Shown one piece after another: positions 7,181 through 34,813 of a DNA stretch of 64,000 nt (the first letter of the stretch is position 1; each line of letters begins with the position of its first letter). The position numbers and the translations under genes were made by a program. The DNA is from Brachionus manjavacas (lineage: Eukaryota; Rotifera; Eurotatoria; Ploima; Brachionidae): contig JAHQIY010000008.1 in the NCBI GenBank assembly GCA_019054805.1, positions 2,279,501 through 2,343,500 on the forward strand, read 5' to 3'. The notes below the pieces were generated by a model. It saw only the letters and a program-made list of their open reading frames with translations. It ran no database searches and was not told where the DNA came from.

Positions 7181-8815
7181 CTAATGTCTATTTTCATAGA
7201 CGTATTGTGTTGTCGAGGTCGACGAACTAGGTCTAAACCTAGTGACATTTCGTTTGACTAAAGCTGCTATGACAACACCCAAGAGAGCAACCACACAAAC
7301 CGCTCCAACAACAGAGCCAACTATTATGGCCACATTATTCTAAATTAAAAAAAATAAACTCTTTGAAAAAAAAAAATTTTATTTAAAAAAAATTTTACCG
7401 TCAAAATAGCGCTCTCTTTGGTTTTTTTGAAATGCTCCCCTGATTCCTGATCAAAGACAACATCAGGCACTTGAGCCCTTATGGCTCTTTGCAAACTATC
7501 TAAACTTGGTCTTCGAATATCTGTCACATCAAATCTCTGGTCATTAATACCAACAGTATATCCAACATTGGACTCTTGATTTAAATCAACTGACCGTTTG
7601 CTATTGTGTCTGTCTACTTCAACATAAAAATCATCCGAGTTTACGTCTGGGTTTTCTTCACAATAAGCTTGTGCTATAGCCGACTCAAGTTTGCCATTCA
7701 ACGACTCGTTATAGTTAGAAATGACAATGTTCTGTGGCAAGAGTGCTATGTCATCATAGACCGTAACTCCTGACTTGGCGAATAGTGGAATCAAATCTGA
7801 TACAGTCGGTTTGGTAAACTTGATCGGATTGGGTACATTGCCATCTACCAAGTAAGTTAAAGAGACGCGTAGCAGCCGCTTGTTTTCTTTTGTGATTAGG
7901 CCGTCTTTAATTATCTTTATGTCAGTTATTCGATTTTGAGCCACATATTTGACATCGACATGGGTGTTCAGCTCGTTCCATGACTCAGCTAAAACAGAGT
8001 TCAGCACTTTGTGCAGCTCAGTGTCGCTAAGCTCAGTGACAATGTAAACCCGGTCGATTTCATAGGCATTGTAAGGACTAAAAACTAAGCTGACATTTGG
8101 TTCAGATTCTGTCTCTTTTTTGAATGCGTCATAGGTGGGCTCAGCTATGGGAATGGACTCTGGGTCCTGGCCATTTACGGACACAGTGTAGCTGAAGCCT
8201 AATACTTCATTTTGTAAGTTGTTTATGTAGTGGGCCACATTTACAATAGACACAGACACTCTAAGGCCATTCTGGGAGTCAAATTGATGCTGGTCTATTT
8301 TGGACAACCAGGCTCGCTTGATTACATTCAAAACTTGCTTGGAGTAAGTTGGCAGCGCTTGTTCGAAGAATACAGTTCTTACTTTGTACAAAAGATTGTC
8401 GTTTGCTAAAGTGCTGGATGTGGTGTTCGACGAGTCGGATTTTTTCATGATGAGTCTGGAGTTGAACATTCTGCGGCCAATGGTCTTGACTGTTTCAACG
8501 CTGGTAAAACCGCTGATTCGCAAGTAGATCTTTGAGAATGGGACTTCGTGGGAATTTAAAAATTGTTCCATCATTACAATTTCGCCATCGAGCTTAGTTG
8601 AGTTCAAGACTAGAAAAAAAATTTTAGAAAAAAAATTGAGTTTTTTCTTTTTTATTTATTAATTGATTACTTTCTGAGTTGAAAAACAAGGAAATCAAAT
8701 CGGCTATTTGTAAATCGGTGTTTTCGTACCAGCCTTTGATATAGGCCACAAAGAATTCGTCAACAGCTTGTGAGCTGTGCTCATACACTGAAAACTTGTG
8801 GCTTAGTAGCTCTTT
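7181..8815 (-). CDS. Giant gene exons 36-38: juxtamembrane modules, transmembrane helix, tail
   Basis: Exons 8671-8815, 7399-8609 and 7181-7339. Exon 36 begins [15 protein letters not shown] in phase 0, directly continuing exon 35's NEIN. Exon 37 carries at least three more modules of the type helix (AIxxTW-like), strand, then a VSLTYLV- or VGYTVGI-like strand and an xPS turn. Exon 38 holds the membrane helix [20 protein letters not shown] followed by KR and a short Ser/Thr-rich tail ending QYVYENRH, stop TAG. The lysine/arginine after the helix fits a type I membrane protein with the EGF array outside. Exon 37 is visibly less A/T-rich than the introns but less G/C-rich than exon 35. Confidence 0.85.

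Positions 8816-34813: not shown

Follow-up and report, generated by a model that had tools for sequence, protein, structure and literature searches.

The minus strand of a 64,000-nucleotide stretch of Brachionus manjavacas DNA (hereafter the window) reads as a DSL domain, more than a hundred EGF repeats, a lectin-like domain and a membrane helix, which raises the question of whether these parts form a single gene and, if so, what a protein of this build might do. Loci of this genome are labelled C8 (the giant gene itself), C6, C1 and C4 below.

A single gene model across head, stalk and tail

The gene model was built with a dynamic-programming splicer (GT-AG introns, codon model trained within the window) and then edited by hand, in that minisatellite exons were deleted, the acceptor at 8815 was picked and an in-frame intron (21638-21567) was inserted. 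It comprises 38 minus-strand exons running from 34870 to the stop codon at 7181, with 19,566 coding bases, a length divisible by three and one stop, which is terminal. Translation starting at the first Met (34870) gives 6,521 aa, and starting at the signal-peptide Met (34813) it gives 6,502 aa. The initial annotation had likewise proposed one gene of 38 consistently spliced exons, with ~6,504 residues from the same Met, and this is borne out by our model, in which EGFs stay intact across the joins. The features are as follows:

7181..34870, minus strand: whole coding region, 38 exons (splice model and controls)
34693..34813, minus strand: signal peptide, residues 20-40 (by eye)
34045..34692, minus strand: MNNL (C2-like N-terminal) region, residues 41-204 (Pfam 2e-13)
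33910..34044, minus strand: first DSL, 7 cysteines (46.7 bits; 1.1e-11)
33345..33882, minus strand: first Cys-Cys-Cys EGF, 7 cysteines (sequence reading)
33177..33329, minus strand: EGF between the two DSL units (EGF pattern)
33036..33170, minus strand: second DSL, 7 cysteines (38.8 bits; 6e-10)
32901..32999, minus strand: second Cys-Cys-Cys EGF (sequence reading)
13244..32882, minus strand: uninterrupted array of ~121 EGFs (EGF pattern)
12674..13075, minus strand: C-type-lectin-like domain (Lectin_C 1.8e-9; 38.8 bits)
10520..15341, minus strand: exon 35, intronless 4.8 kb with raised third-position GC
7399..12445, minus strand: ~10 modules of ~105 aa, M1-M10 (limits by eye)
7250..7339, minus strand: transmembrane helix (by eye)
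7184..7249, minus strand: cytoplasmic tail, 22 aa (splice model)

All 37 introns are GT-AG and most measure 48-65 bp, next to long ones of 371-1704 bp (including 885, 1391, 1221 and 1704 bp). Twenty-four of the 37 interrupt an EGF between Cys1 and Cys6, and splicing restores the whole EGF. The weakest joins are 21638-21567 (acceptor score -2.8), 34540-34484 (donor 0.4) and 10519-8816.

Because the splicer always yields some path, controls were run without any change of settings. It scored 2776 on the real strand (39 raw exons, 121 EGFs), vs. 514 on the opposite strand (3 EGFs), 528 on the reversed strand (0 EGFs) and 117-190 on three base shuffles (0 EGFs); two 300-bp block shuffles reached 2111 and 2115 with 74-75 EGFs, but needed 72-76 exons. 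The control sequences do not reproduce the giant gene model. Moreover, equal-length EGF pairs within the protein had a mean identity of 40%, with a single pair in 1,942 above 65%, so that duplication in the assembly is unlikely; misassembly, which had been named at the outset as evidence that would overturn the single gene, is thereby spoken against. The contig carrying the gene measures 5.25 Mb. Head, stalk and tail are confirmed as one continuous gene on the predicted splice model.

Exon 35 runs for 4.8 kb uninterrupted by introns, with a third-position GC that climbs to 0.59-0.85 (vs. 0.23-0.34 upstream) before returning to 0.40 at its end; conversion by cDNA is one idea for this rise. Minisatellites at 15389-15551 and 18249-18364 lie in separate introns of the gene and have a common 27-bp unit, and a further intronic minisatellite (10150-10448) holds 7.3 copies of a 41-bp unit with 100% matches. 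Elsewhere in the window, positions 1234-2465 (minus strand) carry ORFs with a near-identical repeat of ~80 aa (no Pfam match in the one ORF scanned), and positions 57888-62000 (plus strand) a 1,370-aa ORF with a URGCP-like GTPase domain (1.2e-24). A bdelloid spliced-leader pattern had 0 matches, a result that carries no weight either way.

A doubled DSL head

From its N-terminus, the predicted protein consists of a signal peptide, MNNL, DSL, EGF, EGF, DSL, further EGFs (124 in total), a C-type-lectin-like domain, the modules, a TM helix and a tail. Pfam scans, which covered the pieces of the protein outside exons 9-34, gave MNNL at 2e-13 and DSL at 9.3e-17 in the head, and the bit scores of both DSLs listed above exceed the profile cut-off of 24.2 bits used in the genome search. 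The DSL head of the initial annotation thus stands as an MNNL-DSL head, but the second DSL had been overlooked.

With phmmer, the head matched Jagged-1 at 6.2e-15 across MNNL and DSL, and these two domains could be aligned over their full length with Jagged-1 and Delta. The Jagged-1 residues in contact with Notch are, in the excerpted text of PMC3415683, F199, R201, R203, D205 and F207; in our alignment these positions read N, V, Q, S and D in the first DSL, so that none of the five is kept, and fly Delta keeps all five. In the ordinary-looking ligand C4, too, the residues at and near these positions deviate from the canonical motif, so the loss in the first DSL is not decisive and may be general here.

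Each of the four DSL-EGF units in the giant gene and C6 contains 14 cysteines, vs. 12 in C4. Since DSL disulfides pair consecutive cysteines according to the same excerpt (PMC3415683), we infer that an extra disulfide could join the spare cysteine of the DSL to that of the Cys-Cys-Cys EGF.

The EGF stalk

The ~124 EGFs counted in the initial annotation were recovered as 122 by pattern and two more, the Cys-Cys-Cys EGFs that follow the DSLs and that the pattern does not count. Beyond residue 424, the gaps between EGFs never exceed 10 residues up to where the array ends; a VWC/cysteine-rich region, which in Jagged/Serrate comes after the EGFs, showed no VWC match in the Pfam-scanned pieces, and the array itself is gapless. 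By our own patterns, 53 of these 122 EGFs carry an O-fucose, 78 an O-glucose and 74 an EOGT motif, which we take to be Notch-type sugar motifs. A calcium-type linker, again by our own pattern, is found in 6 of the 122, so the stalk may be floppy rather than rod-like. The corresponding counts (O-fucose, O-glucose, EOGT, calcium-type linker) are 17, 18, 24 and 5 among the 38 EGFs of C6, and 5, 2, 5 and 1 among the 17 EGFs of C4.

Lectin-like domain, module array and membrane end

The C-type lectin domain reported earlier was found again, Lectin_C giving 1.8e-9 when a 140-aa piece was scanned and passing its cut-off with 38.8 bits in the search of the genome; it was not listed when the complete 1,607-aa exon went through Pfam. 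C-type lectins carry the calcium/sugar motifs EPN or QPD, plus WND. By eye, the giant protein has QPS where EPN or QPD is expected, and WND and the inner cysteine pair were not seen; sugar binding by this domain is therefore doubtful.

An unrecognised module array before a membrane helix had also been described. The array and the single TM helix hold, and a fold (beta-alpha-beta-beta-alpha) is now predicted for the modules, weakly, from an alignment of 11-20% identity. On this prediction, the modules may loosely resemble juxtamembrane domains of the ferredoxin/SEA type (e.g., SEA, the membrane-adjacent domain of protocadherin-15 and the neck region of ACE2), from which the giant protein differs by having ~10 in tandem, and the structural Z-scores stay within the range that the tool calls common. 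A single-sequence fold of three modules had a pLDDT of 41, and a Foldseek search with the predicted module returned 487 rows at E <= 10 and none at E <= 0.001, a Rad50 row being the best. The alignment profile found no relative among PDB sequences (four rows, best E 0.22), neither of the two scanned stretches that bear modules matched Pfam SEA at E <= 1, and the sole match to the SEA self-cleavage motif (G-[ST]-[VIA]-[VIAL]) lies in the TM helix, with none in the modules.

The module HMM re-finds its own seven seeds, which is circular, scores M2 at -2.9 and misses M4 and M7; in C6 it gave four rows, one of them positive (8.3 bits, E 6.9e-4). In protein searches of the genome, the only match to the final module exon (403 aa) was the exon itself, and the exon part spanning lectin to modules matched itself, C1 (E 0.25) and C6 (E 0.37). 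Finally, the part modelled as the 22-aa tail has no lysine, so ligand endocytosis in the style of Delta/Jagged is not evident.

Related loci in the same genome

DSL domains occur at three loci of the genome (4 matches among 12 candidates), and MNNL at the same three. The C6 locus (2530-2548 kb) encodes a signal peptide, MNNL, DSL, EGF, EGF, DSL, EGFs (38 by pattern), modules and a TM helix. Its MNNL scored 25.7 bits in the genome search, over the cut-off, and was not listed in the later Pfam scan; one chosen C6 module matched the module profile of the giant gene at E 4e-6. The lectin was not seen in the C6 model, in which long introns may hide exons and the last exons are doubtful. At the C1 locus (5635.9-5656 kb, read from its parts on either side of the middle), a signal peptide runs directly into EGFs, and one stretch aligns with the lectin-like part and first module of the giant gene (264 columns, E 3e-9); this lectin-like part had no Pfam match of its own, and the genome profile search found no DSL in C1. 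The third DSL locus, C4 (1587-1596 kb), looks like an ordinary ligand and has 17 EGFs; its model is unreliable towards the end.

Between C8 and C6, the DSL units pair first with first and second with second (55.8 and 55.5 bits, vs. 25.0-38.5 otherwise), so the doubling predates the split of the two genes. Moreover, head, EGFs, a module and the TM helix sit at one locus in C6, as do EGFs, the lectin-like part and the first module in C1, which independently ties together head, stalk and tail. Judged from these sequences, the giant gene belongs to a small family that appears to combine DSL-EGF head, EGF stalk, lectin-like domain and modules in various ways.

At C8:4028.8-4031.7 kb (plus strand), exons 25-26 of the giant gene recur as a partial copy (93% identity over 1,575 bp) that has its own signal-peptide-like start; a nearby ORF contains YADD and is presumably reverse-transcriptase-like. 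Other EGF genes (C9:2585597-2586484 and C7:3971-3977 kb) contain exactly spaced, equally scoring EGF repeats with steps of 114 and 108 bp, as if amplified recently.

A candidate Notch-like receptor

An intronless, GC-rich (0.50-0.52) Notch-like ORF of 1,019 aa was found at C4:8592-8595 kb (minus strand), with a signal peptide, six EGFs, a NOD-like stretch, a TM helix, and a RAM-like and ankyrin part. It aligned with Notch-1 (6py8_F) over 580-828 (1.5e-29), a match outranked by many other ankyrin rows. Its NOD match was sub-threshold (12.7 bits; 17.3 bits on a 131-aa piece), LNR was not listed at E <= 1, a NODP search gave no match with its control silent too, and the module profile did not match the NOD-like stretch. 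Among 66 matches to a fly ankyrin probe, the best was another ankyrin gene (73.6 bits), followed by the Notch-like ORF (56.9 bits). It is the only such receptor found, by an exon-by-exon search that may miss another. CSL is present at two loci.

Two other leads were rejected as Notch: the genome LNR matches (2/2 candidates), whose ORF presumably encodes a GlcNAc-1-phosphotransferase-like protein, and C1:489-498 kb, the sequence of which is unrelated.

Comparison with known proteins

The giant protein has signal peptide, MNNL, DSL, tandem EGFs and a single TM helix in common with Delta/Jagged ligands. In contrast to these, it has two 7-cysteine DSLs, each with a Cys-Cys-Cys EGF behind it, lacks the contact residues in the first DSL, and adds a lectin-like domain and a module array; its 124 EGFs compare with 16 in Jagged and 5-9 in Delta (PMC3415683, in excerpt). 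With C-type lectin proteins it shares Lectin_C over the cut-off, but by eye it has QPS, and appears to lack WND and the inner cysteine pair.

Lophotrochozoans are already known to have additional DSL domains, as well as DSL genes that include EGF and further domains, and bivalves to have tandem-DSL genes without EGF (both in the available portion of PMC8166818); a Capsaspora receptor kinase carries two DSL domains (PMC4810162, in part). The giant protein resembles these in that its DSL is multiple, or is accompanied by EGF and further domains. In the portions at hand, the word rotifer is absent from PMC8166818, and neither source gives a >100-EGF stalk or a lectin. In the open-licence PMC papers searched, we found no DSL protein with more than 100 EGFs, a lectin-like domain or such a module array. 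DSL-EGF combinations are thus already known, and a DSL-headed build with over 100 EGFs, lectin-like domain and array appears not to have been described in these papers. The initial annotation could not match the architecture to a named family, which holds for the literature searched but not for the genome, where two other loci share parts of it.

What the giant protein may do

Each of the three roles suggested in the initial annotation (a very long cell-cell ligand, a ciliary or cuticle link, a self/non-self receptor) is still a candidate. Our leading, if tentative, reading is that this giant type I membrane protein acts as a long-reach contact protein with a DSL head. The module array and TM helix would anchor it in the membrane, and the 124-EGF stalk, if extended, would hold the MNNL-DSL head far from the cell (a contour of ~0.3 micrometre, assuming 2.5-3 nm for each EGF). 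The head could then dock with a partner borne by a different cell or surface, for which the six-EGF Notch-like receptor is one candidate. The continuous model, the full-length MNNL and DSL alignment, the paralogue loci, the sugar motifs, CSL and the Notch-like ORF are consistent with such a role; the lost contact residues, the few calcium-type linkers, the short tail and the low identity of the module alignment argue against it.

It is rather unlikely that the protein is instead a canonical Notch ligand with added EGFs, engaged in ordinary trans-activation or cis-inhibition of the Notch-like receptor. MNNL and DSL above Pfam cut-offs would fit, as would CSL and an ORF with a Notch-1-like ankyrin part, but all five contact positions differ in the first DSL (not decisive, C4 departing as well) and the genome has a separate ordinary ligand gene.

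A structural surface or matrix link (a glycocalyx, ciliary or cuticle tether), with the DSLs as disulfide-rich caps devoid of a Notch role, is unlikely too. The sheer length, the dense O-glycan motifs, the additional cysteines of the DSL-EGF units, the lost contact residues and C1 as a family member without detected DSL speak for it. However, MNNL and DSL are retained together and the doubled unit is conserved in two paralogues, suggesting selection on the head.

That the model has fused two or several adjacent genes, or that a misassembly is involved, is very improbable: the four long introns singled out above and a few weak splice scores would allow it, but EGFs run gapless over the joins, the control runs speak against it, paralogue loci share the same ends and EGF identity is low. 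Least probable is a self/non-self or immune receptor, for which a lectin-like domain and locally duplicating EGF genes could be cited, but whose lectin-like domain apparently lacks, by eye, WND and the inner cysteine pair, making sugar binding doubtful.

A bolder idea, and a long shot, is that the Notch system has been turned inside out, the receptor having shrunk to six EGFs without LNR and a ligand having grown to 124 EGFs rich in glycan motifs, with its DSL head doubled and SEA-like modules in series. If so, the ligand would have taken over from the receptor the length, the sugar code and perhaps the force gate, and signals could cross a few hundred nanometres.

If expressed as one transcript, the gene would yield a DSL-headed protein with many times the 5-16 EGFs of Delta/Jagged (PMC3415683, in excerpt), its head doubled and its anchor uncommon. 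With a six-EGF Notch-like receptor without detectable LNRs in the same genome, the pair would form a natural experiment on what Notch and its ligands can do without, and on whether the action of DSL proteins is confined to cells that touch.
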